NCBI GenBank assembly: GCA_903889445.1
Contig: CAISXF010000040.1
Coordinates: 41,001 to 105,000, forward strand
DNA from: an uncultured Pseudomonadota bacterium
Lineage (GTDB): Bacteria; Pseudomonadota; Gammaproteobacteria; Methylococcales; Methylomonadaceae
DNA length: 64,000 nt
Direction of reading: 5' to 3'
The position numbers were made by a program, and so were the translations under genes. The notes under the pieces were generated by a model, which worked only from the letters and a program-made list of their open reading frames with translations, did not search any database and was not told the origin of the DNA. Positions within the stretch are counted from its first letter, which is position 1. Each line of letters starts with the position of its first letter. Of this stretch, positions 1 through 57,253 are shown piece by piece.

Positions 1-257
1 AACGATTAAGTCGCGGGGATTTGGTGATTACCGGCGATATTCCGTTGGCGAATGACGTGATTGAAAAAGGTGGTCACGCCATCAATCCACGCGGCGAACT
101 TTACACTCTGGAAAATATCAAAGAGCGTTTAAATATGCGTGATTTTATGGACAATTTACGCAGCAGCGGGATTCACACGGGCGGTTATGCACCACAAAAT
201 TCACAAGATGTTCAAGCGTTCGCCAATCAATTAGACAATTTTTTAGCGCATCGTTAA
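1..257 (+). CDS. yaiI: YaiI/YqxD (DUF188) family protein, C-terminal part (gene runs off the left edge)
   Basis: [49 protein letters not shown] is a characteristic DUF188 C-terminus. Confidence 0.85.
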
Positions 258-315
258 ATCAAAAACATTCCTCTAATTTTTCAATTCCCCCACTTAAATT
301 TCAAATTAAAAAAAC

Positions 316-807
316 ATGACGAAAAAATTACTCACGCATTTCAACGCCGCCGGTGACGCGCACATGGTGGATGTGGGCAACAAAAATTTCACCTATCGCG
401 TGGCAATTACCGAAGGATTCATTCATTTGCAACCAGCGACGCTGGCGTTAATTCTCACTGGAGAACACAAAAAAGGGGATGTCCTCGGCATTGCGCGAAT
501 TGCGGGCATTATGGCGAGTAAGCACACCGCTGATTTGATTCCGTTGTGTCATCCGTTGCCGCTGACGCACGTTGAAATTATCTTAACACCTGAACTCGAA
601 AATCAACGCATTCGTTGCCAAACGACGGCAAAAACACATGGTCAAACGGGTGTCGAAATGGAAGCCTTAACTGCGACACAAATCACGCTGTTGACCATTT
701 ACGATATGTGTAAAGCGGTGGATCGCGGCATGGTGATTGACGGCGTGCGCTTGCTTGAAAAATCGGGCGGAAAATCCGGACATTGGCACGCAGATAACGT
801 AATTTAA
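316..807 (+). CDS. moaC: cyclic pyranopterin monophosphate synthase MoaC
   Basis: full-length MoaC motifs ([51 protein letters not shown]). Confidence 0.95.
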
Positions 808-829
808 TTTAAACTAACAGGAAACCAAT

Positions 830-1870
830 ATGGCTCTGAAAATTCACGAATTAGCGACCGCCTGTGGCGCGACGATGGAAGGCGATAACCCCGCGCAAAT
901 CATTACGGCGACAAACGATATTACCGCCGCGCAAATTGGACAAGTGACGCAATTGACGCAGGCGCGTTATCGCCATTATTTGCAAACGTCACAGGCTTCG
1001 GCGTGTTTTGTGGCGACCGATTTTGATGCACGAAACGTCCCAGAATCGTTAGTTTTACTGCGTTGTGCGGATCCAGAAATGGCATTTGTCAATGCTGTGA
1101 AATTGTTGCATCCGCCTATCAATTATCCCGCGACGATTTCGCCGCAAGCGGTGATTTCAGAAAGTGTGATATTGCCTGAAAGCTGTCATGTTGGCGCATT
1201 TGTAGTGATAAATGAGGGCGTGGAAATTGGCGAAAATAGTGAGATTTTGGCGGGCGTTTATTTGGGGCAGAATGTCAAAATTGGCAAAAATACGCGCATT
1301 TATCCTTACGCGGTGATTTATGACGGCGTGGAAATTGGCGATAACGTGATAATTCATTCGGGGGCGATTATTGGCGCGGATGGTTTTGGTTATAAATTTC
1401 GCAACGGGCAACACGTTAAAGTGCCGCAAATAGGGAATGTGGTGATTGGTGACAACGTAGAAATTGGTGCGAATACTTGCGTTGATCGGGGCGCGTTGGG
1501 CAGTACGGAAATTGGTGAGGGCAGTAAAATCGATAATTTAGTTCAGATTGGACACAATAATAAAATCGGGCAACACGTTATTGTGTGTGGACAAACAGGC
1601 ATTTCGGGGTCGTGTACGATTGAAAATTACGCGATTCTGGCAGGCAGCACGGGCATTGCGGATCATGTCAAAATTGGGCAGGGTGCGGTGGTGATGGCGC
1701 GGGCGGGTGTAGCAAATGACGTGGCACCGAAAACGCAGGTTTTTGGCAGTCCCGCAAAAGAAAAGCGGGTGGTGTATCGTGAACAAGTGGCGTTGAGTCA
1801 ATTGCCGGAATTAGTGAAAACGATTAAGCAATTAGAAGCACGATTAGCACAATTGGAACTAAAAATCTAA
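830..1870 (+). CDS. lpxD: UDP-3-O-acylglucosamine N-acyltransferase LpxD
   Basis: left-handed beta-helix hexapeptide repeats, [26 protein letters not shown]. Confidence 0.95.
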
Positions 1871-1882
1871 AGCTCTATAAAC

Positions 1883-1925
1883 AACTTAGCCCGACTTTTG
1901 AGAATGTCAAAAGTCGGGCTAAAGT
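1883..1925 (+). terminator. intrinsic terminator after lpxD
   Basis: perfect stem TTAGCCCGACTTTTGA-gaatg-TCAAAAGTCGGGCTAA. Confidence 0.7.
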
Positions 1926-1964
1926 TAGAACCAGAACACTTTTAATAACTGGAAGAAATCTCTT

Positions 1965-2150
1965 TTAGTTATTGTTGTTCATGTGTTTGTTTTCAATTTT
2001 TTTGAAAACTTCTGCTTGGCTTTGTGCTACTGCACCACTTTGCAAATGTTTCGTTTCATCAGCTTTCAGCATGAAAACTAAAACAATCGTCGCTGCAATT
2101 AAGCCACCAATCCAGAACCAAAAATAATCTTTTTCTTGTGTGTCAGACAT
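1965..2150 (-). CDS. small single-pass membrane protein of unknown function (start probably MSDTQEKDYFWFWIGG)
   Basis: ORF with one hydrophobic helix; internal Met preferred over the Arg-rich upstream extension. Confidence 0.5.
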   Translation of the reverse strand: MSDTQEKDYFWFWIGGLIAATIVLVFMLKADETKHLQSGAVAQSQAEVFKKIENKHMNNNN

Positions 2151-2367
2151 TGTTAAATCCTCGTAGTTATTATAATAATTTTTTTGTCTCTTTCTTCGAA
2201 GAGGTCGTCCTAAACGACGGCGTATTTTTATCATGAATTTAGGTATGATGTCAAAATCATAAATAAAAATTTACCTAAAAAACGAATAAATCATATCAAA
2301 TGCTTTTATGAATTCTGAAAAAATTCAACTAAAATGCCATTCAACTCAATCTTAACTCGGACATTTT

Positions 2368-2940
2368 ATGCCACAAATTATCCTAGCTTCAGCCTCGCCC
2401 CGCCGCCGAGAATTACTTAATCAAATAAATGTGCGGCATTTTGTTCAAACTGTGGAGATAGACGAAACGCCTTTTTTTAACGAATTACCGACACATTATG
2501 TTCAGCGTTTAGCCGCCGAAAAAGCCGTCACATGTGTCCAAAAATTTAATCCAAAAATCCCCATTCTTGCCGCAGATACCGCCGTCGTTTTAGGCGATAA
2601 AATCATGGGCAAACCGACCAATGAAAATGACGCTATGACCATGTTGCGCTTGCTCTCCGGCAGAACGCATCAAGTATTTACCGCGATTGCGTTAGTCGGA
2701 CGCGAAAATCACACCGCCCTCAGCATCACCGACGTGACCTTTAAAAATTTATCCGAAACAGAACTCCGCGCGTATTGGCGCAGCGGTGAACCGCTCGACA
2801 AAGCCGGAAGTTACGCCATTCAAGGGCAGGGCAGTTTATTTATTGAAAATATTAACGGCAGTTTTTCTGGCGTGATGGGTTTGCCGCTGTTTGAAACCGC
2901 ACAATTATTAGCCCGTGAAGGCATCGAGTTACTCGCATGA
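2368..2940 (+). CDS. maf: Maf family nucleotide pyrophosphatase
   Basis: ILASASPRRRELL, LAADTAVVLGDKIMGKP, SGRTHQVFTAIAL, DKAGSYAIQG. Confidence 0.95.
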   Translation: MPQIILASASPRRRELLNQINVRHFVQTVEIDETPFFNELPTHYVQRLAAEKAVTCVQKFNPKIPILAADTAVVLGDKIMGKPTNENDAMTMLRLLSGRTHQVFTAIALVGRENHTALSITDVTFKNLSETELRAYWRSGEPLDKAGSYAIQGQGSLFIENINGSFSGVMGLPLFETAQLLAREGIELLA

Positions 2941-4391
2941 GCGAAGAAATTTTAATTAACGTCACGCCACCCGAAACCCGTGTCGCCGTGATTGAAAATG
3001 GCGTGTTACAAGAACTCATTATTGAGCGAAGTTGCAAAATCGGTTTAATCGGCAACATTTACAAAGGCGAAGTATGCCGCGTGTTACCTGGAATGCAGGC
3101 GGCATTTGTGGATATTGGTTTATCACGTTCCGCCTTTTTACATTTGTCGGATTTGTGTTCTAACGAACTGGAAAAAAAAGGCTCGGCGAACATCGAGCAT
3201 TATTTGCGCGAAGGGCAACGCATTATCGTCCAAGTGTTTAAAGACCCGCTCGGCAGCAAAGGCGCACGTTTAACCACCGATATTTCAATTCCATCACGCT
3301 TTCAAGTTTATATGCCATATTCGACTAACACTGGCGTTTCGCAGCGTATCGAATGTGCTGAAGAACGCGCCCGTTTAAAAGTTTGTTTGGAGCAATTTAA
3401 AAACGAAAACCAATGTGGCGGATTCATTGCTCGCACAGCGGCGGAAGGCGTTGAGGAATCTGTGTTGCGGGCGGATATGGAATTTTTGTTGAAACTCTGG
3501 GAATCCATCAATGCGAAAATTGCGACTGCCGCGCCCAAACAATTCATTCATAAAGATTTGCCGTTGAGTGTTCGCACGTTGCGTGATTTGTACCGCGAAG
3601 GCATTGAACGCATTCGCGTAGATTCCAAAGAAACGTATGTTCGACTAGTCGAATTTGCTGAAGTTTTCGCACCAGAAATTATTCCCGTGATTGAACATTA
3701 CAACGGCGAATGCCCCGTTTTTGATATTTATAGCGTTGAAGATGAACTCGAAAAAGCCCTGGCGCGAAAAGTAAATCTCAAATCTGGCGGACATTTGGTG
3801 TTTGATCAAACCGAATCGATGACCACCGTTGACGTAAATACGGGCGGTTATGTGGGCGGACGAAATTTAGAAGAAACGATTTTTAAAACCAATTTGGAAG
3901 CCGCTCAAGCCATTGCGCGACAACTGCGTTTGCGAAATTTAGGCGGCATTATCATCGTCGATTTCATCGATATGAAAGGCGCAGAACACAGGCAGCAAGT
4001 GTTACAAGCGTTTGAACGGCATTTAGAAAAAGACCGCTCAAAAACCAAAATTTCGGAAGTATCGATTTTAGGTTTAATCGAAATGACCCGCAAACGCACG
4101 CGCGAAAGTTTGGAGCATATTTTATGCGAACCTTGTTGCGCGTGCGGCGGACGTGGCGTAATGAAAACAGCGGAATCGATTTGTTTGGAAATTTTTCGGG
4201 AAATTATCCGCGAAGTTCGACAATATAAAGTTCAACAAATGTTAGTGTTAGCATCGAACGAAGTCGTGGAAATGTTGCTCGATGAAAAAGCCGATATGTT
4301 GTCGGATTTAGAAACTTTTTTGAATGTGCAAATTAAATTCCGTTCCGAATCCGGCTATAATCAGGAGCAATACGACGTTGTTTTGTTGTAA
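2937..4391 (+). CDS. rng: ribonuclease G
   Basis: RNase E/G family, overlaps maf by 4 nt; FIARTAAEGV, MTTVDVNTGGYVGGRNLEETIFKTNLEAA, PCCACGGRG. Confidence 0.95.
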   Translation: MSEEILINVTPPETRVAVIENGVLQELIIERSCKIGLIGNIYKGEVCRVLPGMQAAFVDIGLSRSAFLHLSDLCSNELEKKGSANIEHYLREGQRIIVQVFKDPLGSKGARLTTDISIPSRFQVYMPYSTNTGVSQRIECAEERARLKVCLEQFKNENQCGGFIARTAAEGVEESVLRADMEFLLKLWESINAKIATAAPKQFIHKDLPLSVRTLRDLYREGIERIRVDSKETYVRLVEFAEVFAPEIIPVIEHYNGECPVFDIYSVEDELEKALARKVNLKSGGHLVFDQTESMTTVDVNTGGYVGGRNLEETIFKTNLEAAQAIARQLRLRNLGGIIIVDFIDMKGAEHRQQVLQAFERHLEKDRSKTKISEVSILGLIEMTRKRTRESLEHILCEPCCACGGRGVMKTAESICLEIFREIIREVRQYKVQQMLVLASNEVVEMLLDEKADMLSDLETFLNVQIKFRSESGYNQEQYDVVLL

Positions 4392-4395
4392 TTTT

Positions 4396-6675
4396 TTATT
4401 TTTTAAACGCTTTCGCTAACGCATTCGCCATTAAATTATTTTGTAACGGCGGCAGCAGTTTCACTTTGGGCGTGGGTTCGATTTTGCGCGATTCACGTTT
4501 CATTTCATTTGGTTCAATTGTACTTTTCATGGTGAGCGCAATGCGTTTGCGTGGCGCGTCAATTTCCGTCACGGTGACGGTGACGACATCACCCGTTTTG
4601 ACCACGTCGCGTGGATCTTTGATAAACGTATCAGCGAGTTGCGAAATATGAACCAGTCCATCTTGATGCACGCCAATATCGACAAACGCGCCAAAATTCG
4701 CCACATTCGTGACCACACCTTGCAAACGCATTCCAACTTCCAAATCCGTCATTTTTTCGACACCCGCTTTAAATTCCACATTTTTAAATTCGGGTCGTGG
4801 GTCGCGTCCTGGTTTTTCGAGTTCTTGCAAAATATCTGTCACGGTAGGCAAACCAAAATGTTCGTCGGTGAAATTCGCCGCATTTAACCCGCGTAAAAAT
4901 GCGGGTTGTCCGATTAAATCACGGATATTTTTGCCCGTGTTTTTGATGATATTTTCAACCACGGGATACGCTTCAGGATGAACCGCCGACGCATCGAGCG
5001 GATTATTACCGTTCAAAATCCGTAAAAAACCCGCTGCTTGTTCATACGCTTTTTCGCCCAAACGTGGCACTTTTTTCAACTGTTTACGATTTTTAAACGC
5101 GCCATTTTCATTCCGAAACGCGACGATATTTTCACTCACGCTCGCCGATAAACCCGACACTTGTTTGAGCAACGAAACCGATGCCGTATTCACATCCACG
5201 CCGACTTTATTCACGCAATCTTCCACAACATTATTGAGCATTCGCGCCAGTTGCGTTTGATTTACGTCGTGTTGATATTGCCCCACGCCGATGGATTTGG
5301 GATCGATTTTCACCAATTCCGCCAACGGATCTTGCAAACGTCGCGCAATCGACACCGCGCCGCGCAAGGTTACGTCTAAATCGGGAAATTCTTTTGCCGC
5401 TAATTCCGAAGCCGAATAAACCGACGCACCGGCTTCAGAAACGGTAATTTTGTTGAATTTCAACTCGCTGTGACGTTTCAAAATATCAGCGACCAAAGCA
5501 TCGGTTTCGCGCGACGCGGTGCCGTTGCCAATGCTGACCAGTTCCACATTATGCAGCGCAATCAACGTCGCTAATTTGGCAATCGAACCGTCCCAATCGT
5601 TGCGCGGTTGATGCGGATAAATCACGTCGGTGGCAACCACTTTGCCAGTTTTATCGACAATCGCCACTTTCACGCCCGTCCGAATGCCAGGATCCAAACC
5701 CATCGTCGTTTTCGCGCCAGCTGGTGCCGCTAATAATAAATCACGCAAATTATGGGCAAAAACCCGAATCGCTTCCGCGTCTGCCGCTTCACGAAGTTGA
5801 CTTTTTAAATCCAAATCCAAGCGCGTAAACAATTTCGTTTTCCAACCCAAACGCGCGGTTTCTGCCAGCCACGCATTCGCGGGTTGCGACATATCGCCCA
5901 CGTTTAATTGTCGTGCCACTTTCTGAGCGCACAATTCATGACCCAATTTTTCGTCTGCCGCAGGTTGTAATGTCACCACTAAACAATCTTCATTTCGTCC
6001 GCGCAACATCGCTAAAATGCGGTGCGACGGCATTTTTTGCAGCGGTTCACGGTAATCAAAATAATCTTTGAATTTCTCGGCTTGCGCTTCTTTGCCCGCG
6101 ACAACGTGAACGTGCATTACGCCTTGTTGCCAAACGTGTTCGCGTAAATCTGCCAGCAATGGCGCGTTTTCAGATAATTCTTCCATCACAATTTGCCGTG
6201 CGCCTTCCAATGCGGCGGCAACATCAACCACGCCTTTTTCAGCGTTCACATAGTTGGCGGCAAATGCTTCGGGCGCGACGTTTCGATTAGCCAAAATATC
6301 GTGCGTCAACGGCTCTAAACCCGCTTCACGGGCGATTTGCGCTTTCGTGCGGCGTTTCTGTTTAAACGGTAAATATAAATCTTCGAGCAACGTTTTCGTT
6401 TCGGCGGCGTTAATCGCAGTTTCTAATTCGGGCGTGAGTTTTTCTTGCGACGCGATACTTTCCAAAATCGTGGCGCGACGGGCGTTCAGTTCGCGCAAAT
6501 AGCCCAAACGTTCTTCCAGCAACCGCAATTGCGTGTCGTCCAAACCGCCAGTGATTTCTTTTCGATAACGGGAAATAAACGGCACCGTCGCGCCTTCGTC
6601 TAAAAGTGCGACGGCGGCGTTAATTTGATTGACGTGAACGGCTAATTCTTGGGCAAGTGTTTGATTGATGGTCAT
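4396..6675 (-). CDS. tex: Tex family RNA-binding transcription accessory protein
   Basis: [21 protein letters not shown], YqgF-like [16 protein letters not shown]-terminal S1 domain. Confidence 0.95.
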
Positions 6676-6691
6676 GATTGGATGATTTGGA

Positions 6692-7483
6692 TTATTCGGC
6701 GTTTAACAAAATGACTTCGAGTTCTTCGGTGATTTCTTCTTGGCGATAAATTTGGGATTTGTGATGTAGTTTTTGGGTTTGTGCGTCGAGATGTTGCACC
6801 GCGCCTTCCAAATGCTGGAGTCGGCGACGATTTTCAGCCAGCGACGAAAGATAAATAATTTCGTGCAATATTGGCAGCAATACCTGTTCCAGCATTTTTA
6901 CGAAAAAAAGTTCGGGCGACACATTCAACAGCGGTGCTTCTTCTTCGGTTTTGGGCGGTCGCGGCAGTGGCAAAATTTGTCGGTGTTGAATTTGATTGCT
7001 GTGCAGGTCGTGATAAACCGCCATCAAAGTGCAATCAGCGTCTAAATTGTTAAGGCATTGCATCAGTTGTTCGAGCAATAGCGGCACGTCTTCCACGACA
7101 TTCATGCCGTTCAAGCGTGCAATTAGCCGATAATCGTACGCTTCAGCTCGCGCAATTAACCGATTGCCGACCGCAATAATGCCGGCATACGGTTTATTTT
7201 TCAGGCTGTCCAGCAACTTTTCATTAAAATCACCACAAAATCCGCGTTCTGAACCTAGCACCAGATAAACGATTTGACCGTTATCGTCGCTGACAAAATG
7301 CGGATACGCCGCCAGAAAACGCGCCGAATTTCTTTCAACGTGTGCGACTATTTGCGATTGCAACAGCTGTAACTGCGTGAGTTTATGCACCGCCATCAAC
7401 GCGAGATTTTTCATGGCATTGAGAATACCGCGAATATCTTCGAGTTGGTGAATGTGTTGGTATAAATCGCGGCTTCGGCTCAT
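6692..7483 (-). CDS. atpG: F1Fo ATPase gamma subunit (N-ATPase type)
   Basis: N-terminal [31 protein letters not shown]; last gene of the ATPase operon. Confidence 0.85.
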
Positions 7484-7484
7484 T

Positions 7485-8951
7485 TTAGGCTAACCAATTG
7501 GCGACAGCGTGTTGCCATTGTTCATGGGAACTGTCGAGCGTTAAATCGGTATTTTTCACGCCTTGCGCGAGGCGTTCTAAAGCCTGCTCAAGGTCAGAAA
7601 ATTCTAACGCATTGAGGCAATCACTGTTGAAAGCCACCAGCCACGCCAGTTGACACAAACTCGATAACGGCGTGAACCGATCTTGTTTCAGCAATTCACG
7701 CAATAATCGCCCACGTTGAATACGTTGTTCCATCGACGCTTCCAAACGTTGACCAAAACGGGTGAACATTTCGAGTTCTAAAAACTGCAAATAATCCAGT
7801 TTCATTTGTCCAGCTTGATTGCGAATCGCAGGATGTTGCGCTTTGCCGCCAATGCGTGACACCGATTTTGCAATATCAATCGCCGGACGAAAACCCGACG
7901 TAAATAAATTACTGTCCAAATAAATTTGCCCGTCGGTAATCGAAATTAAATTCGTCGGAATGTACGCGGCAATTTCGCCTTGTTGCGTTTCGACAATCGG
8001 CAATGCCGTCATCGTGCCGCCGCCGTGTTCGGGATTGTAACGAGTGGAACGCTCTAACAAACGCGAATGAATAAAGAAAATATCACCCGGATACGCTTCT
8101 CGACCCGGCGGACGACGCAATAATAACGACAATTCCCGATACGTTCGGGCGTGCGTGGACAAATCATCGTAAACAATCAGCGTGTCGCGTCCTTTTGCCA
8201 TCCAATACTCTGCCAAAGCACAGCCAGAAAACGGGGCGATATATTGCAAACCAGGTAACGCATTGGCTTCGGCAACAACACACACGGTGTACGCCAATGC
8301 GCCATGTTGTTTGAGCGTTTCAATTGTGCTGACGACGGTCGAACGTTTTTGCCCAATCAACACCACGATGCAAATGACATTTTTATCTTTTTGATTGATA
8401 ACGGTATCGAGCGCAATCGAACTACGCCCCAGTCCTTCATCACCAATAATCAGCTGGCGTTGTCCTTTGCCAATTGGAATCAGCGCGTCGATAATTTTAA
8501 TGCCGGTGTAAAGCGGTTCATTAACGAAATCGCGAGCGGTAATCACGGGGGAATTTTTTTCCAATTTTTCGCGGGTCGAAGCCTCCGGTGGCGCGTCGCC
8601 GTCTAACGGCAAACCGAGTGGATCAATGATGCGCCCTAAAAATGCCTCGCCCACTGGTATGCTCAACGGATGACGGGCAGGGCGCACGGTAGTTCCGGCG
8701 GTGAGCGAAGGTGTTTCATAAAGTAAAATTACGCCAATGCGGTCGCAACTTAAATCAAACACCATGCCGCGACTGCCTTCCGCAAAAATCAAAATGTCTT
8801 CAATCGCTGCCGACGGTAAACCGTTAATCCACGCAATACCGTCGCCCACCGAAACCGTCGTGCCTTGTTCTTCCACGCCCAACGCCGGTTTGTAGCGATT
8901 TAACCAATCGGTTTGTAACTCCAATAAATCAAATGAATTATTCAAAATCAT
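7485..8951 (-). CDS. atpA: F1Fo ATPase alpha subunit, divergent P-loop GDEGLGRS (start probably MILNNSFDL)
   Basis: alpha-subunit fold sequence, [56 protein letters not shown] track start (9056) is too long. Confidence 0.9.
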
Positions 8952-9687
8952 GCGCCAACTCCGCAAAACCGCTGAGTTCGTGTTGTAAATTAGCTTGCAA
9001 CACCCACGAACCCAGCTCAATTCGTAAACCCGCCAGCAGCATTGCCTCTTCGGCATAATGAAACGTGAGCGGCAGCACTATCAACGTCGAAAAACAGTCC
9101 GCCAATTGTTGTCGATAAATCGCATCCAGCGGAAACGCGCTGCTGATATTGACGACGGGCGGATTTTGAAGACGTTGAAAACTCGCATTCAAGGTGTCGG
9201 GTAAGGTTTTCAATTGCTCCACCAAAAATTGCACCAATTTCGTTTCCAATTCAGCACTCGCGGTGTGTTGCACCAGAATATGAGCAAATCGAGCCGCATT
9301 TTTCAACGCGAGTTGTTGCGCGTGTTGTTCAAATTCATGTTGTTGACGGCTGAGATTCGCTTGGTTTCGTTGGCGTTCCTGCTCTAACTCTTTTTGCAGC
9401 AGGTCGAATTGCGCCCGACGTTCTGTGTCAAGGTCTTGATGCAATGCTACCAGCGCAATTTGTTTTTCTTGTTCCCACAATTTTTGCCGATTTTCATACA
9501 ATTCACGCTGCGTTTCAGCTTCTTGTTGCACGCTTTGCGCTTTCGCCAAGGTGTCTTCAATATGCAGTTTGCGTTGGGCAATGGTGGCGAGCAAGGGTTT
9601 ATAAAATAATCGCTGCAAAATCCAAACTAAAACCAGGAAATTGAGCATTTCCAAAATAAACGTCGAAAAATCAAATTCCATAGACAT
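8938..9687 (-). CDS. atpF: F-type ATPase b subunit (extended, b/delta-like as in N-ATPases)
   Basis: N-terminal TM and long coiled coil; 249 aa; position between c and alpha. Confidence 0.85.
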
Positions 9688-9689
9688 AG

Positions 9690-9956
9690 TTATTTCACAA
9701 TGTATTCAAGCAACGGATTTTTGAACAGCACAATTAACACAATTACCAAACAATAAATGGCGAGCGATTCAATCATCGCCAAACCAATAAACAATGTTCG
9801 CATGATGGATTGTTCGGATTCGGGCTGTCTCGATAAGGCTTCTAATGCGCTGCTAATGGCTTTGCCCATTGCTAACGCAGGCAGCATGGTTCCTAAGGCA
9901 ATCGCAATCAGCGAGACAATACTTGAACCGAAAACAATTAGGGAAATATCATTCAT
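9690..9956 (-). CDS. atpE: F-type ATPase c subunit
   Basis: ALEALSRQPE loop and AMIESLAIY carboxylate helix. Confidence 0.92.
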   Translation of the reverse strand: MNDISLIVFGSSIVSLIAIALGTMLPALAMGKAISSALEALSRQPESEQSIMRTLFIGLAMIESLAIYCLVIVLIVLFKNPLLEYIVK

Positions 9957-9959
9957 AAA

Positions 9960-10643
9960 TTACTCCAGTGGGGGTTGATGTTGTTGAGTTTGAATTGCGC
10001 TGGCTAAATAAATTAACGCCAACGTGCCAAAAATATAGGCTTGCACAAGAGCTTCGATAATATGCAGCATTAAAATTGGAATAGGGGCTAAAAATCCCGC
10101 CACCAATAAAACCAGCATCGCGGCGGTTTCTAAACTCATCATATTGCCAAACAACCGAATCGCCAACGCTAACGTGCGGGTGAATTCGCTGATGATGTGA
10201 AACGGCAGCAAAATGGGGCTAGGCGTTATGTAATGATGCAGGTGTTTTTTAATGCCTTGAGTTTTGATACCAAACCAATGCACCGATAAAAATACCAATA
10301 TCGCCAGCGCAGAGGTGACGGATAAATCACGAGTGGGTGAATGCAGCGTAGGAATTAAACTGACGAGATTCGCCACGGTGAGAAAAATCCATAACGTCGC
10401 AATCAAGGGCAAAATACGGCGACCGTTTTCGGGTGCGACGGCGAGAATCGATTCATCCATTATCGTCACGATACTTTCCATTAACGTTTGTAACGGTGTC
10501 GGTAACAATGACAAACGGCGCGTCGAAAGCCACGCTACCAATGCCAGCATGAGCATAATCGCCCACGTCGTCATGACCGAACCGTTAATGTGGATGCTGT
10601 CTAAATTGAACGGAAATTCATGCTCCATAAATGATAGTCTCAA
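9960..10643 (-). CDS. atpB: F-type ATPase a subunit
   Basis: IISEFTRTLALAIRLFGNMMS with the essential Arg; polytopic. Confidence 0.92.
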   Translation of the reverse strand: MRLSFMEHEFPFNLDSIHINGSVMTTWAIMLMLALVAWLSTRRLSLLPTPLQTLMESIVTIMDESILAVAPENGRRILPLIATLWIFLTVANLVSLIPTLHSPTRDLSVTSALAILVFLSVHWFGIKTQGIKKHLHHYITPSPILLPFHIISEFTRTLALAIRLFGNMMSLETAAMLVLLVAGFLAPIPILMLHIIEALVQAYIFGTLALIYLASAIQTQQHQPPLE

Positions 10644-10915
10644 TTTTTAATCAGCGAATAAACGTTGAACATTCCCACGACGACACCGGTAAACAATAAA
10701 CTCAATGTCCAACGCGCGGAATAGCCGGCACTTAAACTGTCTAACCAGTGACCTAAATACGCTCCGGCAACTATCGGCAACACCATCACCAGTCCCAGCG
10801 TACCGACATAAACGGTTTGTGATAATAAGGTGGATCGCTCGTTTTGCGCTTTTTTGATGCGTTTCACTTGCTGTTCAATTTGGTTTTTTAATTTCAATGG
10901 CATTATCATTCCCAC
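10640..10915 (-). CDS. AtpI/AtpQ-like small membrane subunit of the N-ATPase operon
   Basis: two TM segments, GAYLGHWLDSLS motif, lies between epsilon and a. Confidence 0.7.
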   Translation of the reverse strand: MGMIMPLKLKNQIEQQVKRIKKAQNERSTLLSQTVYVGTLGLVMVLPIVAGAYLGHWLDSLSAGYSARWTLSLLFTGVVVGMFNVYSLIKN

Positions 10916-11312
10916 TGCAAATCGTGTTTTAAATTCTTAACTTTCTTGAGGATTGCCCATTCCATTTGCTGCAAACTATCACGAATGGCTTGTCGGCTTT
11001 CTTGTTCTTTCGCCGCTTGTTGTTCTAGCAAATCGCTAATGCGGTCAAAATCGGTATCGATTAAAAAAAACCGCGTGCTAATAGTGAGTTGATTCGCGCG
11101 AAAAGAAGCCAATCCACTCGGTAAGGCTAAATAATGCCAGGTTTCATTATCCAAACGAAAACGCGATAAACCTTGCGCCAAAACAGTCATAAAATGCGCG
11201 TGATTCGCTTGAATACCAAACGAACCGCTGGCATCGACACCGACAAACGAACACACATTCGGAAACGATTGTTGTTGATTGCTGGAAAGAATATGCAGGT
11301 TAAAATTATTCA

Positions 11313-11313
<1 letters not shown>
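10906..11313 (-). CDS. atpC: F1 ATPase epsilon subunit (start probably MNNFNLHIL)
   Basis: position after beta; epsilon-like beta-sandwich plus C-terminal helices. Confidence 0.8.
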
Positions 11314-12737
<1,424 letters not shown>

Positions 12738-49654: not shown

Positions 49655-50269
49655 TCATTTTGTTCGTACAAAAAAATGGATTTCGTCAATGATGTTATTT
49701 AAGCAAGATTTATTCATCAAAAATAATAATTTTCCTTCTATTAGGCATTGTTCAATCACTAAATCGATAGACGAAATTAAAACAAAATCCTGTTTTTTGT
49801 CGTGCAGAATAGTGGTCACAATTTCATCGCGCGATTGAATCACATAATGCGGCAATGAACTTTCAATCGAAATGTGTAACGTATCTGCAACTGATGATAA
49901 ACAGGCGTTAATTATGATATTACCTAATTCACACATCGCTTCGTTTTCAATTTCACGAATGGCATCCCTGTCCATTTCCATGCCTATCATGTTTTCCACG
50001 ATTTGAAGGGCGGCTTCTTCAGCAAACAATAACATCACTTTAGTATTTAACGCGCCGGTAAATTCTTGCGTCACAACGCCGAACACTTCAGCTTTTAACC
50101 TTAGCGTCTCGACACTTACGTCTTCTATTTTTACTAAAGAGACATTAGGAATCGATAATTGTACCGATTGATCAATAACTTGACTTAAACTTTGCGCAGC
50201 ACAACTTGTTCCGATACTGATAATGTCGCCCAACGCATCAGGAAGTCCGCTTATGTCTAAGGTTTTCAT
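49655..50269 (-). CDS. CheC-like chemotaxis phosphatase family protein
   Basis: DALGDIISIGTSCAAQSLS and EIENEAMCELGNIIINACLSSVAD. Confidence 0.8.
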   Translation of the reverse strand: MKTLDISGLPDALGDIISIGTSCAAQSLSQVIDQSVQLSIPNVSLVKIEDVSVETLRLKAEVFGVVTQEFTGALNTKVMLLFAEEAALQIVENMIGMEMDRDAIREIENEAMCELGNIIINACLSSVADTLHISIESSLPHYVIQSRDEIVTTILHDKKQDFVLISSIDLVIEQCLIEGKLLFLMNKSCLNNIIDEIHFFVRTK

Positions 50270-50272
50270 TTT

Positions 50273-50638
50273 TTAAATACCGGCGAAATAATCAAGGGCG
50301 AGCGTGATGGAGGCTTCGGTGACAGGTTTCGAAATTAAAATCGAACCTAACGCGCGGGCTTGATGTTGATAGGTTTCTTGCACGTTCGCAGAGAAAATGA
50401 CGAGGCGAATATCAGGATATTTTGCCAAGATTTCTTTCGCCGCATCGGTTCCTAACATGCCAGGCATATTGATGTCCATCGTGCAGTAATCTGGTTGTTC
50501 GCGCTCAATTGCCTCAATTGCTTCTTCGCCCGTCGTGGCTTCAGTTAAAATCCAATCGGGGTGTTTTACGCTAATATGTTTGCGAATAAACATTCTTGAA
50601 ATTCTGCTATCATCCACAACTAATACGGTTTTAGACAT
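50273..50638 (-). CDS. CheY-like response regulator
   Basis: VLVVDDSRISRMFIRKHI, CTMDINMPGMLGTDAAKEI, SKPV. Confidence 0.93.
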   Translation of the reverse strand: MSKTVLVVDDSRISRMFIRKHISVKHPDWILTEATTGEEAIEAIEREQPDYCTMDINMPGMLGTDAAKEILAKYPDIRLVIFSANVQETYQHQARALGSILISKPVTEASITLALDYFAGI

Positions 50639-50689: not shown

Positions 50690-51454
50690 TCACATAAGTG
50701 GCAATAATTGACTAAGAATTTTTCCGTTAGTGATTAGAATTTGCTTTGGGAAAATACCGGCGTTACCTTGAAAATCGGTAACCGTCGCACCGGATTCTTG
50801 TGCGATTAACGCGCCCGCCGCCACATCGTACAAATTCAATTCTTGTTCCCAAAACGCATCGAGTTGTCCGTCGGCAACTAAACAAATATCGACCGCTGCC
50901 GAACCTAAACGCCGTTGTCCTGTTGTAGCTTGAGCGATGCGACAAAAACGCGCTAAATTATTATTTTCTAAATATGAACGCAAACAAGCGAATCCCGTGC
51001 CAATCATGGCTTCGCCTAAATCATCAATTTCAGAAACCCGAATCGGTTTGCCATTTCGCCACGCGCCCTGCCCTTTTGCAGCGCAATAATAATCATCCAA
51101 CGCTGGCGCAAAAACGGCACCGAAAACGATGTCGCCGTCGATTTCTAACGCCACGCTAATCGACCAATAATACTGACCGCGTGAAAACGAATGCGTGCCG
51201 TCAATCGGGTCAACAATCCAGCGATTGGTTTGATTTTCGGATTGTCCGCTTTCTTCGCCCCAAAATCCATATTGTGGATAATGTTCGCGGAGTTGCGTTT
51301 GTAAAAAGGCTTCGACCGCTAAATCTGCCGCTGTGACAAAATCGCGCGGACTTTTTTTATCGATGTTTAAGTGTTTTAAATCTCGAAAATATGTCAGCGC
51401 AATCTCGCCTGCATCGCGAATCACGCGCTCTAAAAGCGGTTGTAAAATAGTCAT
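50690..51454 (-). CDS. inositol monophosphatase family / histidinol-phosphatase-like
   Basis: GFWGEESG, WIVDPIDGTHSFSRG, LYDVAAGALIAQESGATVTDF. Confidence 0.85.
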   Translation of the reverse strand: MTILQPLLERVIRDAGEIALTYFRDLKHLNIDKKSPRDFVTAADLAVEAFLQTQLREHYPQYGFWGEESGQSENQTNRWIVDPIDGTHSFSRGQYYWSISVALEIDGDIVFGAVFAPALDDYYCAAKGQGAWRNGKPIRVSEIDDLGEAMIGTGFACLRSYLENNNLARFCRIAQATTGQRRLGSAAVDICLVADGQLDAFWEQELNLYDVAAGALIAQESGATVTDFQGNAGIFPKQILITNGKILSQLLPLM

Positions 51455-51500
51455 TTTTTATCCATATTAGTTTGAAAAATTATTGAAATATAGTTGCGTG

Positions 51501-52547
51501 CTAAATTAGCGACGTTAATAAAATTCGCGTCACCACCAATCCCACCAGCGCAATGGGTATCGCAAAACGTAGATAATTGATAATTTCTGGAACAATAAAT
51601 TTATTTGAAAACCAGCCATCCGTATTTTGTGAATTAAAAAGCGTCACTGAAAGTAGAATCATCACTATTTGATACGCCGAACCAATTACAATAAGCTGCA
51701 TGATAATTGCGTCGGGTGGTAACGTTGCGTAGCGTGCTGAATAAGTAAAACTAAGTGCTACCAACGCCAGAATGGAAGATGACCAATACCCCAATCGTTT
51801 ATCCACCTCAGTGTTCATGTAAAGCGTACCAATTGTGGGAATAAGCATAACAAGAAAAAAGGGAATAAGAATTGTAAAAAGATGTGTGGCGGGTTGCCGA
51901 GTAATCACAATATTCGCGTGCATTTCTGGGAAATACTGACCATCCCATCCTCGTTTGAATGACCTAACGAAAGTTATTTTTTTTGCATTCCAACCCGATA
52001 AGCTCACATCTTGACCAAGCCCTGAATTATTGATGTCACGCTGCCCTTGTGAGAGAATGATTTGATTAGTTTTATACTCTTCTGATGCAATACGAATCTT
52101 CAAGTTTTGTGTATCAAAAGGGAAAGCGTCTAATTGATACTTACTGTCAAAAATACCTTTCATTCTTTGGATAAAAACGACCGTTCCATCGGCATTGATG
52201 AAAACCCCGTGTTCCATACCTTGCACAGTTGCGTTTGCCAATATTAATTTTGGAGACCAGATGGTTTCAAGTTTTTTTGTTGCTTCATCATGGTTAAAAA
52301 TCAGGCGATTTGTTCCCATTTTATGAACGTCGAAGGCAAGGCTTGAATCTTTCCAGCTTAACTGTAAATCAAGAATCGCCTCAAAAGTATTGGTTTGATC
52401 ATTGATTTTTGAAATGCTAGTCACAAAAACAGATACGCCGATGCTTATCGGACGTGGTGCATTTTCAGGTATACGCCTCACATCCGCGCATAATACACCG
52501 TTTGATAGAAACGATAGTATGAAAAAAACAAGAAATTGGCGCATCAT
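51501..52547 (-). CDS. pentameric ligand-gated ion channel (prokaryotic Cys-loop/Pro-loop superfamily)
   Basis: signal peptide; beta-rich ectodomain with DAFPFDTQNLKIRI Pro-loop; four C-terminal TM helices. Confidence 0.88.
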   Translation of the reverse strand: MMRQFLVFFILSFLSNGVLCADVRRIPENAPRPISIGVSVFVTSISKINDQTNTFEAILDLQLSWKDSSLAFDVHKMGTNRLIFNHDEATKKLETIWSPKLILANATVQGMEHGVFINADGTVVFIQRMKGIFDSKYQLDAFPFDTQNLKIRIASEEYKTNQIILSQGQRDINNSGLGQDVSLSGWNAKKITFVRSFKRGWDGQYFPEMHANIVITRQPATHLFTILIPFFLVMLIPTIGTLYMNTEVDKRLGYWSSSILALVALSFTYSARYATLPPDAIIMQLIVIGSAYQIVMILLSVTLFNSQNTDGWFSNKFIVPEIINYLRFAIPIALVGLVVTRILLTSLI

Positions 52548-53572
52548 TTTGGCAACTCAGTCATTTCATTTCGGCGCACAAACATGACACTAATCGTTAC
52601 GATAACAACACCGGCCATTACCAGCACTTGTAATAACGCGAAAGCAATAGCTCGTACCACCGCAGCGGTCATTTGATTGTGATAGGCATCAAAGTTTTGC
52701 ACAGCAATGATTATTCCAATATTCTCGCCTTTGTAGTCCTGGATTGGCATGGTGACAATACCGTAATCTGCGCCATTGATTGTTTTTAAATCCGTTTTAA
52801 TATCTGCATCCGAAGTGAATAAATCCGGTGTGACTGTTGCCTTTAGAACCTTCCAATTTGTTGCTTCAACATTTCGAAAGCCTGCGACAATTCTTTCGGC
52901 ATCTGGTGGCGGAAGCAATATTGCGACTTTATTCATGATGGCATCGTCCACAAATGCCCCCGCCTCAAATCCTGTGTTCTTTTTGATATTTTCCAGAACC
53001 GTCATAAAACTTGAACCGACTTCAAAACTACCAATGTAACCGTTCGCATCTTTAACTAAATCAATCCCGCGAATGCTAAGACCACGCCGTCCGATTTCAA
53101 CGCCTTTTCGCGGTTCGTGTTCCTTATTGGTATTAACGACCATTTCACGAAAGCTACTTAAATCTTCTCCAGGTCCATCTTGAGGGGAATAAATACGCAA
53201 ATATGTAATTGCGGGTGCGGTGTGAAATTGTCCTTCTAGCACATTATAACGGTCACGCTGAATCAAGAATGAAGGTTGCAATATATCCACAAGTTGTTCA
53301 CGATTATTAGCACGAAAGGCTTTTTTAACCGAGGGTAAATTCACTATCATTGATGCACTCGCAGCCGCCCTATTCATTTGACTTTGCAAATCATTTTGAA
53401 GAAGCGTGGCGACAGAATTTAGTTCTCGTTGCTTACAACCATCAAAAACTGCTTGATGACTGATTATCGAAGAATAAGCCGAAATAGTCGCCATAAATAG
53501 CGTTGCAGGGAGAACGATAAGAAGCACTTTTTGGTATGGTGTTGCTAATTTTTTCATTTTTAATCTCGTCAC
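52544..53572 (-). CDS. Cache-type (double-Cache-like) periplasmic sensor protein with no cytoplasmic output domain
   Basis: N- and C-terminal TM helices flanking a sensor domain (GFEAGAFVDDAIMNKVAILL...DYGIVTMPIQDYKGENIGIIIAVQ); cytoplasmic tail only about 10 aa. Confidence 0.75.
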   Translation of the reverse strand: MTRLKMKKLATPYQKVLLIVLPATLFMATISAYSSIISHQAVFDGCKQRELNSVATLLQNDLQSQMNRAAASASMIVNLPSVKKAFRANNREQLVDILQPSFLIQRDRYNVLEGQFHTAPAITYLRIYSPQDGPGEDLSSFREMVVNTNKEHEPRKGVEIGRRGLSIRGIDLVKDANGYIGSFEVGSSFMTVLENIKKNTGFEAGAFVDDAIMNKVAILLPPPDAERIVAGFRNVEATNWKVLKATVTPDLFTSDADIKTDLKTINGADYGIVTMPIQDYKGENIGIIIAVQNFDAYHNQMTAAVVRAIAFALLQVLVMAGVVIVTISVMFVRRNEMTELPK

Positions 53573-53601
53573 AAACGATTGTCGCTTTCAAAGTCCGCAT
53601 A

Positions 53602-56433
53602 TTAAAACATTATTGTTTGCCAAATTCGCGTCACTTGTTCGCGTAATTCGACAAATTCTTGGGCATTGATAATCGTTTTATCGCCTTGTAAAACTCGTTT
53701 ATGTCCCGCGTCACGATAAGCGCAATAAGCATTCGTTAAAATTGCCGCATCATCTTTAGCAATGATATTTTGCATTTGTAAACTTTCCAATAATCGAATG
53801 TTATCGGTGTAAATTGTAGACATTTTCGACGCATTCGCCAACACGCCAAATTGCACCATAAATTCAATATCGACAATCCCGCCCGCACTTTGTTTTAAAT
53901 CGAATTTATCAGCGGATTTTGTCACCAAAGATTCACGCATTTTTTCACGCATTTCACGGACTTCGGTTTTCAATTTTTCAATATCGCGCGACAAACTCAA
54001 AACCCGCTGACGGATTTCAGAAAATACTTGCCCTAAATTTCCATCGCCCGCAATGAAACGAGCGCGAACTAATGCCTGCAATTCCCACGTCCAAGCGTTT
54101 TGTGTCAAATAATTTTCGTAGCTGTCAATGTGCGTGACTAACGCGCCAGAATCGCCATTCGGACGCAAACGCAAATCGACTTCGTACAATTCACCCGCCA
54201 ACAATTTCGTATCTAAAATGTGGCGAATTTTTTGACCTAATCGCGCATAAAATTGCGAACACGACAACGGTTTTTCGCCATTTGTCATCGCGTTTCCGTC
54301 GGTGCAATCGTAGACAAAAACCACGTCTAAATCCGAACCGTAACCCAATTCAAAACCGCCTAATTTGCCAAAACCGATAATCGCAAAATTGGTTTTTTCG
54401 TCATCACATTCGGGCGGATAACCGTGTTTTTCAACCAACATTTGCCACGATTTTTTCACCACACAATCAACAAGACTTTCGGCTAAAAATGTCAAATAAT
54501 CGCTCACGGTCATCAGCGGAATCACGCCCATAATGTCCGCCGCCGCAATTCGCAACACGTTCACCTGTTTAAATTGCCGCAACGCAATCATCAATGTTTC
54601 TAAATCGTCGGCATCAATTCGCGCCACGAGCTGATTTAATTGCGCGTCTAAATGGTCTTTTTTGAGTGGTTCAAACAGTGAGCGCGTGTCCAATAACTCA
54701 TCAAATAAAACAGGATAACGCGCCAAATACTCACCAATCCACGGACTCGCCGACGATAATTTTAACAATTGCGCCAGCGCGTTCGGGTTTTCAGCAATCA
54801 ACGCTAAATACACATTTCGACCCGCCACAGCCGTAAATAATGCGAGCAAACGCTTCAAAGTTTCGTCAGGATTCGACACAGTTTGCAACGTCGAAATGAC
54901 TTGCGGCATCAAGCGATTGATTACGCCCAGCCCTTTATTGCTCAAACGCCGAATCGCTGACTCATTTTTAAAACCAACAATCGCCGCCCAACTTTCAGCC
55001 GTATTTTGAAAACCGTAGTCGCTCAAATTTTTGAGTAATTCGCTTTCATCGTCCAAACCCGCCCAAATTTTTTGGCTCAACTGTTCAATTTCGTCTTGTT
55101 TTGAAACTGAAAAAACGGCATCGAAAACCGCGTGAACTTTATCTCGCACGGTGTTTAATTCAACTAAAAACGTTTCCCAATTCGCAAAACCTAAAACGTA
55201 AGCCATTGCCAATTTTGCATTTTCATTTGTCGGTAAATCGTGCGTTTGTTTGTCTTGATATTGTTGAATGCGGTTTTCAACACGACGCAAAAAATGGTAC
55301 GATTTTGCTAATTGCGTTGCGTCTTCGGGGTTCAATAATTCTAATTCTGAAAGTAGTTTCAACACGTCCAAAATGCCGCGCGTTTGCAAATTTTTGTCGT
55401 TTCCGCCGCGAATCAATTGAAATGCTTGTCCGATAAATTCAATTTCGCGAATGCCGCCGCGTCCTAATTTGACGTTGTCGATTCTATCTTTGCGCCGTAA
55501 TTCTTGAACGATTTGCGCTTTGAGCGAGCGCAATTCCTCAAACGCGCCATAATCCAAATATCGCCGATAAACAAACGCCCGCAACATTGACATCAACGGT
55601 TTGCCTTGTTCAAAATCGCCCGCAACTTGCCGCGCTTTAATCATCGCGTAACGTTCCCATTCCCGCGCTTGGGTTTGGTAATAATTTTCCATGCCATCGA
55701 ACGTCATAATCATCGCGCCGCTGTCGCCAAACGGACGCAAGCGAATATCAGTACGAAATACAAAACCATCAACAGTCGTTTCATCGAGAACACGCACCAA
55801 ACTTTGGCAAACTTTGGTGAAAAATTCGCTGTAAGTCGTTTCTTTTCGGTCGGATAAAACACCGTTTTCAGGATACGCAAAAATCAAATCAATATCAGAC
55901 GAATAATTCAATTCATACGCGCCTAATTTCCCCATGCCCAACACCACGATTTGTTGCGGCGTTCCATCCGCTAAAACAGGGATGCCCCGTTTTTCACAGG
56001 CTTGAGAATAAATAAAATCCAACGCCGTTTGAATACACGCCTCGGCAAGCCACGATAATTCGAGCAAAGTTTGGGTCAATTCTTCCCAATCTGAAATGTC
56101 GCGCCACGCCAAACGAATCATTTCATTGCGGCGAAAATGTCGTAACTCAAGCATCAAATCGGCTTCAGTTTCGATGTTTTTTTGCGCGAGTTTTTCACGG
56201 TAAGTCGATTCGTTATAAGTTTTGAATAAATCGCCCGATTGAATTAGCTCTAAAATAATTTCAGGATGACGGTCGCAATGTTGCGAAACAAATTCACTCA
56301 TTGCCCAAACTTTCACCATTGAATTTGGAAAATCGGCGGGTAATTTTAATGCGACGAAACGCTCTGACCATTGCGTTAAATCAATGGTGGCGCGTAGAGA
56401 TTCGGGGAGTTTTTGAATGTCGGTTTTAAACAT
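53602..56433 (-). CDS. glnE: glutamine synthetase adenylyltransferase GlnE
   Basis: VVLGMGKLGAYELNYSSDIDLIFAYPENG and FGKLGGFELGYGSDLDVVFVYD duplicated NT domains. Confidence 0.95.
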   Translation of the reverse strand: MFKTDIQKLPESLRATIDLTQWSERFVALKLPADFPNSMVKVWAMSEFVSQHCDRHPEIILELIQSGDLFKTYNESTYREKLAQKNIETEADLMLELRHFRRNEMIRLAWRDISDWEELTQTLLELSWLAEACIQTALDFIYSQACEKRGIPVLADGTPQQIVVLGMGKLGAYELNYSSDIDLIFAYPENGVLSDRKETTYSEFFTKVCQSLVRVLDETTVDGFVFRTDIRLRPFGDSGAMIMTFDGMENYYQTQAREWERYAMIKARQVAGDFEQGKPLMSMLRAFVYRRYLDYGAFEELRSLKAQIVQELRRKDRIDNVKLGRGGIREIEFIGQAFQLIRGGNDKNLQTRGILDVLKLLSELELLNPEDATQLAKSYHFLRRVENRIQQYQDKQTHDLPTNENAKLAMAYVLGFANWETFLVELNTVRDKVHAVFDAVFSVSKQDEIEQLSQKIWAGLDDESELLKNLSDYGFQNTAESWAAIVGFKNESAIRRLSNKGLGVINRLMPQVISTLQTVSNPDETLKRLLALFTAVAGRNVYLALIAENPNALAQLLKLSSASPWIGEYLARYPVLFDELLDTRSLFEPLKKDHLDAQLNQLVARIDADDLETLMIALRQFKQVNVLRIAAADIMGVIPLMTVSDYLTFLAESLVDCVVKKSWQMLVEKHGYPPECDDEKTNFAIIGFGKLGGFELGYGSDLDVVFVYDCTDGNAMTNGEKPLSCSQFYARLGQKIRHILDTKLLAGELYEVDLRLRPNGDSGALVTHIDSYENYLTQNAWTWELQALVRARFIAGDGNLGQVFSEIRQRVLSLSRDIEKLKTEVREMREKMRESLVTKSADKFDLKQSAGGIVDIEFMVQFGVLANASKMSTIYTDNIRLLESLQMQNIIAKDDAAILTNAYCAYRDAGHKRVLQGDKTIINAQEFVELREQVTRIWQTIMF

Positions 56434-56527: not shown

Positions 56528-57145
56528 CTACAAGGACGTGATAGCAATCTCTTGTCCCAAACTGTATCCCAGCTCAAGATTCAAATGCTTTTCAGCAGAA
56601 AAATCTTTCGGTGTGTACTCATTTGAGGGAAGTGCTTTTGTTAAAAGCCCCATTCTTTCATACGCTTCTGCTACGAGTTCGCTACAAAATAAGGAACTCA
56701 GGTCTTCTTTGTTTTCTCCAAAGATTCCACCATAAGCCGCTCTCAGTAATTCAATCATGTGCTTTTCATAAGGACGACCACTTACTTCATGACGGAAATC
56801 ATTGAGTCCCCGAATCATATCATCAGTAAGTGATTGAGAAAGCCGCCGCACACTGACTTCGTAACCACTCGCAAAACATTTTTCAAGCCGTTCAGAAAGC
56901 TCGACACGTTGAACACCTTTAGTCAATTTCCCCGTATCTGCGTCTTCGAGATTGCTCAAAGTGGTCGATTCCCAGCAAAATACAGAGTCTTTTTCGTCCA
57001 ATGAATCGTTGAATTTGTACACAAGCCCAACGTGTGACCACTTGCTAAATGTAAAAAACTTAATGCCATCCGAAATGCCTCCTTTCCCAGAAAAAAGAAT
57101 AACATCGCCCGTTTTCAACTCATTGCGTATTTCTTTGTATCTCAT
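56528..57145 (-). CDS. YiiX-like NlpC/P60-superfamily cysteine hydrolase
   Basis: LKTGDVILFSGKGG.SDGIKFFTFSKWSHVGLVY ... SSLFCSELVAEAYERMG. Confidence 0.8.
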   Translation of the reverse strand: MRYKEIRNELKTGDVILFSGKGGISDGIKFFTFSKWSHVGLVYKFNDSLDEKDSVFCWESTTLSNLEDADTGKLTKGVQRVELSERLEKCFASGYEVSVRRLSQSLTDDMIRGLNDFRHEVSGRPYEKHMIELLRAAYGGIFGENKEDLSSLFCSELVAEAYERMGLLTKALPSNEYTPKDFSAEKHLNLELGYSLGQEIAITSL

Positions 57146-57253
57146 AACGACCACCTTGTTTAGTTAATAAAAAATTAAAACATAACTCTTCTTCTCGTAA
57201 ACGTATTCTAAAGTTTTACCCCATCTTCAGAATACGTTTAACTAAACCAACTA

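Follow-up and report, generated by a model that had tools for sequence, protein, structure and literature searches.

To our knowledge, the role of bacterial pentameric ligand-gated ion channels (pLGICs) is largely unknown. The solved channel nearest by sequence to the one described here is GLIC, which likewise has a Pro-loop and no cytoplasmic domain; it differs from the pair reported below in being proton-gated and in having been studied as a channel alone. On the sensor side, the closest described proteins are the dCache_3 chemoreceptors and kinases, which share with our protein the pocket signature and the succession of transmembrane (TM) helix, Cache domain and TM helix, but carry a HAMP and a cytoplasmic output domain, whereas the proteins of the pair have no output domain.

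Associations between pLGICs and additional sensors were reported by Tasneem et al. in 2004, who described fusions with PBP-I and Cache/MCP-N domains, operons with PBP-II genes and, in Rhodopseudomonas, a predicted operon of a pLGIC and a stand-alone Cache gene, whose products were proposed to cooperate (PMC549065). According to these authors, such partners help to sense the ligand, and the channels act as chemotactic receptors (PMC549065). The fused channels (from Methanosarcina, Cytophaga, Microbulbifer and alphaproteobacteria) resemble the present case in placing an extra periplasmic sensor domain on a pLGIC; unlike it, they consist of one polypeptide per subunit and therefore have five sensor domains per channel, whereas here the sensor is a separate membrane protein (PMC549065). 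In DeCLIC, too, a periplasmic accessory region modulates a bacterial pLGIC, but this region consists of two beta-rich jelly-roll lobes fused to the N-terminus, is sensitive to calcium and is unrelated to Cache (PMC9897478, PMC12664993). Moreover, alpha2-delta of voltage-gated calcium channels is a Cache-containing accessory channel subunit (as cited in PMC549065); it belongs to another channel superfamily and architecture, so that the likeness is a functional analogy only, with no homology claimed past the Cache domain.

Here we describe a Cache gene and a pLGIC gene encoded side by side in a contig of an uncultured bacterium of the Methylomonadaceae (Methylococcales, Pseudomonadota); the whole stretch analyzed, 64,000 nucleotides long, is referred to as the window. 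The initial annotation of this DNA regarded a separate, coupled sensor as a distinct arrangement, a view that does not hold, as the Rhodopseudomonas case had been published in 2004 (PMC549065). Compared by its description, that operon is alike in combining a separate Cache gene with a simple pLGIC, and unlike in being one genome in a general survey, which included no analysis of missing output domains or HAMP loss, of the overlap, of co-phylogeny or of distribution (PMC549065). Our literature search, thin on subscription journals, found no later papers on Cache-pLGIC pairing. As far as could be checked, the additions made here to the known idea are a co-inherited module, its distribution, an output-less lineage, repeated loss of HAMP and horizontal spread.

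The Cache and channel genes

The channel gene lies on the minus strand (51501..52547) and encodes a subunit of 348 aa with a signal peptide. Its product matches the Pfam family PF02931 (Neur_chan_LBD) with an E-value of 1.6e-21 and 77.2 bits, against a cut-off of 26, and in the PDB it is closest to structures of GLIC and to a GLIC-GlyR chimera (E ~2e-18 to ~1e-17). The ligand-binding, extracellular domain defined by PF02931 covers residues 25-219 (51891..52475, minus strand), and within it the Pro-loop LDAFPFDTQ (52107..52133, minus strand; FPFDTQ being residues 142-147) has no Cys pair. Three of the TM helices (M1, M3 and M4) exceed the hydropathy threshold, while the pore helix M2 was placed through alignment of the pore sequence, which puts it at approximately residues 247-272 (51732..51809, minus strand; position inferred). 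With a ligand-binding domain, a Pro without flanking Cys residues and four TM helices, the predicted protein falls among the Pro-loop type pLGICs, as had been proposed for it from the letters of the sequence.

Immediately upstream, and on the same strand, the Cache gene extends over 52544..53557 and encodes 337 aa when read from the ATG at 53557; the alternative GTG at 53572 would give 342 aa. The initial annotation had delimited the two genes correctly except for this start, which it placed at 53572. Alignments with the relatives L021, L151, L152 and L147 were used to infer the start, and the ATG is more likely, since the L021 relative, also of 337 aa, begins at the matching ATG. The product matches PF14827 (dCache_3) with an E-value of 1.1e-20 and 74.6 bits, against a cut-off of 25.7. 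Hydropathy analysis (Kyte-Doolittle, 19-residue window) located an N-terminal TM helix at residues ~7-33 (53459..53539, minus strand); it is followed by the periplasmic dCache_3 domain at residues ~45-284 (52706..53425, minus strand), for which the Pfam match spans residues 50-289 of the translated frame, and by a C-terminal TM helix, again from hydropathy, at residues ~295-330 of 337 (52568..52675, minus strand). Only ~7 residues remain after this second helix, and the Pfam scan detected neither a HAMP nor an MCP signal or kinase domain in the protein, which separates it from chemoreceptors (MCPs) and sensor kinases and leaves it with the layout of a dCache_3 extracytoplasmic sensor. A sensor held between two TM helices and devoid of an output domain, as originally described, is thus what Pfam and hydropathy recover. 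Searches among solved structures returned no significant relative of the Cache protein, with weak CitA/DcuS-type matches only, and the AlphaFold models (one per protein, each from two sequences) reached pLDDT values of 35 and 46, too low to use.

The two genes meet in an ATGA overlap (52544..52547, minus strand), in which the TGA stop of the Cache gene shares nucleotides with the ATG start of the pLGIC gene. In the window the junction sequence is ...CAAAATGATGCGCC..., and it reads AAAATGATGCGCC at the Cache/channel junction; the overlap between Cache stop and channel start is 4 nt when counted from the first ATG and 1 nt from the second. The 4-nt overlap reported earlier is therefore present in the junction sequence, and it probably reflects translational coupling of Cache and pLGIC.

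Distribution of the pair

To survey the gene neighborhood of pLGICs, PF02931 searches were made in Pseudomonadota genomes, covering relatives, the class, the phylum, the window's order and the order of genome G771, and the flanks of the matches were screened with Cache-family profiles. Of 41 distinct pLGIC matches, which include a few fragments, 13 have a dCache gene directly upstream: the window, L021 (a Methylovulum MAG, of which L148 is the same locus), L022, L151, L152, L147, L026, L043, L047, L131, L128, L129 and L130. The operon arrangement of Tasneem et al. thus recurs in the window and 12 other loci. All 13 pairs have the order Cache, then channel, and in all of them stop and start codons overlap; the overlap measures 8 nt in L026 and 4 nt in the other 12, or 1 nt in those with a second start codon behind the first. 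The conserved adjacency, whose absence would have spoken against the initial annotation, was hence found, and chance adjacency was ruled out by 13 of 41 matches that form one clade on both sides. The remaining 28 have no such Cache neighbor, which indicates that the Cache protein is not a general requirement in this superfamily of channels. A single-sequence scan of genome contigs returned only L021; on plasmids the pLGIC query had no match and the Cache query found only distant Cache proteins, and no relative was found among viral contigs.

Some loci of the survey have features of their own. Genome G918 holds two divergent pairs, L128 and L129, ~160 kb apart. In L026 (G345, 167-12658), the only pair seen adjoining a chemotaxis cluster, the two genes lie a few kb downstream of MCP-like, CheW-like and CheA-like genes, named by sequence inspection. 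In L032 (G111, 7041-9075), an unlinked pLGIC gene with ABC-transporter-like genes upstream overlaps the end of a gene for a ZnuA-type zinc-binding protein (PF01297, E 2.4e-39), and its product may be a channel that senses metal, an arrangement reminiscent of the PBP operons of Tasneem et al. Moreover, two long pLGICs, L033 (7368-9371, 667 aa) and L046 (6526-8238, 570 aa), are extended at the N-terminus by sequence for which Pfam gave no family at E 0.01.

The association was also examined from the Cache side, with a profile built from six linked Cache proteins and run against 399 Pseudomonadota genomes, 153 of which were matched. The top three matches (498-567 bits; the fourth scored 192 bits) all adjoin a pLGIC, a test that is partly circular, as the three are themselves rows of the profile. 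Most of the remaining relatives sit in long chemoreceptor- or kinase-like frames. The non-circular test is provided by the order of G771, where pairs L128-L131 lie outside the profile: the short output-less frames L081, L083 and L090 (two in G918, one in G979) are each followed by a pLGIC, and so is the Cache frame L080 of G880. Every intact output-less Cache relative that was checked is followed by a pLGIC. Excluded from this count were the short frames L062, L066, L085 and L124-L127, cut or possibly cut by Ns or contig ends, and L123 was set aside because it resembles a frameshifted GGDEF protein.

Shared history and conserved features

Maximum-likelihood trees were calculated for the 13 linked channels together with 23 unlinked ones, and for the 13 linked Cache proteins together with 22 others. 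Each set of linked proteins is a single clade, with support of 100/100 for the channels and 100/98 for the Caches, and three deep sub-clades are identical in both trees: L022 with L043; L026 with the Methylococcales set that includes the window; and L047 with L128-L131. The pairwise identity matrices of Cache and channel are correlated with r=0.93, a value that none of 20000 permutations reached, and r is 0.51 when distant pairs only are considered. Such matching trees signify co-inheritance, which linkage and joint transfer could yield without any contact between the products. In the trees, L022 is placed not with the window, whose family it shares, but with L043, from another family elsewhere in the phylum; this grouping points to horizontal spread of the Cache-pLGIC pair as one unit. 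As the linkage has a single origin on both trees, the 13 pairs cannot be counted as separate events, and the case for coupling rests on the overlap and gene order, which persist down to ~20-25% identity. In addition, purifying selection acts on both genes (dN ~0.2, dS close to saturation).

Within the channels, FPFD-Q is invariant in the alignment of all 13 linked members, and the charges close to the inner end of M2 differ among them. In the linked Caches, nine residues (R121, P125, D132, R137, G152, E154, G159, G176 and E179) are invariant in 13 of 13, and the same nine are almost invariant in 22 chemoreceptor-type relatives, so that the membrane-distal pocket signature has been retained. 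T233 and K192 are among the features specific to the linked Caches. No output domain was found in any of the linked Cache proteins scanned. A weak HAMP remnant scored in three of them, and HAMP-like sequence after the last helix is absent from the Methylococcales set of the window's clade (five members) and from L130, which implies that HAMP was lost at least twice. Repeated loss of HAMP from proteins that kept the pocket is consistent with a non-cytoplasmic output.

Insertion site in the window

The pair is flanked upstream by glnE (53602..56433, minus strand) and downstream by a gene of the inositol monophosphatase (IMPase) family (50690..51454, minus strand), both identified by Pfam and both outside the module. 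In at least nine congeners these two flanking genes adjoin each other with a gap of ~30 bp or less, followed downstream by cheY and cheX, and the pair is absent; no pLGIC was found in the 17 congeners searched. The window pair occupies exactly the gap between glnE and the IMPase gene and, judged from gene order, is a two-gene insertion there. A CheY-like receiver (50273-50638) and CheX (49655-50269), assigned by Pfam, follow on the minus strand (49655..50638), and a larger operon comprising them and the IMPase gene was considered and rejected, since congeners carry glnE, IMPase, cheY and cheX without the pair; for the same reason the neighboring cheY-cheX are genus background and give no evidence of a link to chemotaxis. 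Comparison of window positions 51430-51520 and 53600-53640 showed that the pLGIC stop is directly followed by a stretch similar to the 3' terminus of glnE, with a mean column identity of 68% across the aligned part, and that the ancestral IMPase leader resumes after it; this glnE-like stretch may be a trace of the pair's insertion, or may be due to chance. Further upstream of glnE, positions 56528-57154 encode a YaeF/YiiX-type C92 peptidase family protein (PF05708, E 3e-7).

Proposed function and alternatives

Adjacency, order, overlap, co-cladogenesis and exclusivity together lend strong support to a functional tie of the Cache protein to the channel, as first suggested from the sequence. As for the nature of this tie, described initially as that of an "auxiliary subunit or ligand presenter", we infer a role from these genomic patterns, and consider it rather probable that the pLGIC has, in the dCache protein encoded with it, a dedicated accessory subunit for sensing. 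Under this reading, the two proteins would be made together through translational coupling and would meet in the inner membrane, where binding or release of a ligand in the Cache pocket would shift the second TM helix, the periplasmic surface, or both. The shift would favor or disfavor opening of the pentamer, so that a periplasmic solute would be converted into an ion flux or a change in membrane potential, and the pLGIC itself would take the place of the output domain missing from the Cache protein. Cache sensors are usually dimers and pLGICs are pentamers, and the stoichiometry of a Cache-channel complex is therefore not obvious. A stronger version, in which assembly with a double-Cache membrane subunit of their own, holding the physiological ligand site, is obligatory for the channels of this clade, is put forward more tentatively, at somewhat less than an even chance.

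The Cache protein might instead act upstream of the channel and outside the gating complex, as a ligand concentrator or presenter, or as a partner in assembly or folding. Preliminary concentration or sensing of the ligand has been proposed for stand-alone PBP and Cache neighbors (PMC549065), and the unlinked L032 channel gene repeats the theme with a soluble binder; nevertheless, a protein anchored by two TM helices would be a poor carrier, and the second TM helix, as well as the HAMP remnant kept in several members, are features of signaling, which makes this explanation unlikely. Less likely still is that the Cache protein is co-regulated with the channel but acts elsewhere, for example with dCache_3 chemoreceptors or histidine kinases, the channel being a separate response to the same condition. 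Its nearest relatives are indeed of chemoreceptor type, and the L026 pair stands beside chemotaxis genes, but flanking genes otherwise vary between pairs, the HAMP needed for docking with a receptor was lost repeatedly, and the cheY-cheX genes of the window are present in the genus without the pair. Finally, neutral adjacency, in which genes joined once were kept together by joint horizontal transfer with no functional coupling, agrees with the single origin of the linkage but is highly improbable, as bacterial neutral neighbors normally separate over such divergence, while here overlap and order survived through three deep sub-clades and transfer between distant families into many insertion sites, with selection maintaining both genes.

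The accessory-subunit reading bears on how the ligands of bacterial pLGICs could be approached, since a sensor co-encoded with one pLGIC clade, with a pocket drawn from a large and assayable family, offers a handle on the channel's ligand. If true, the sensing half of a chemoreceptor would have been re-used with an ion channel as its output, and the obligate assembly would be a hetero-oligomeric sensor-channel made from half a chemoreceptor. It would also be the first case of a prokaryotic neurotransmitter-receptor homologue with an auxiliary subunit, and would open a route to the natural ligand and role of such channels.
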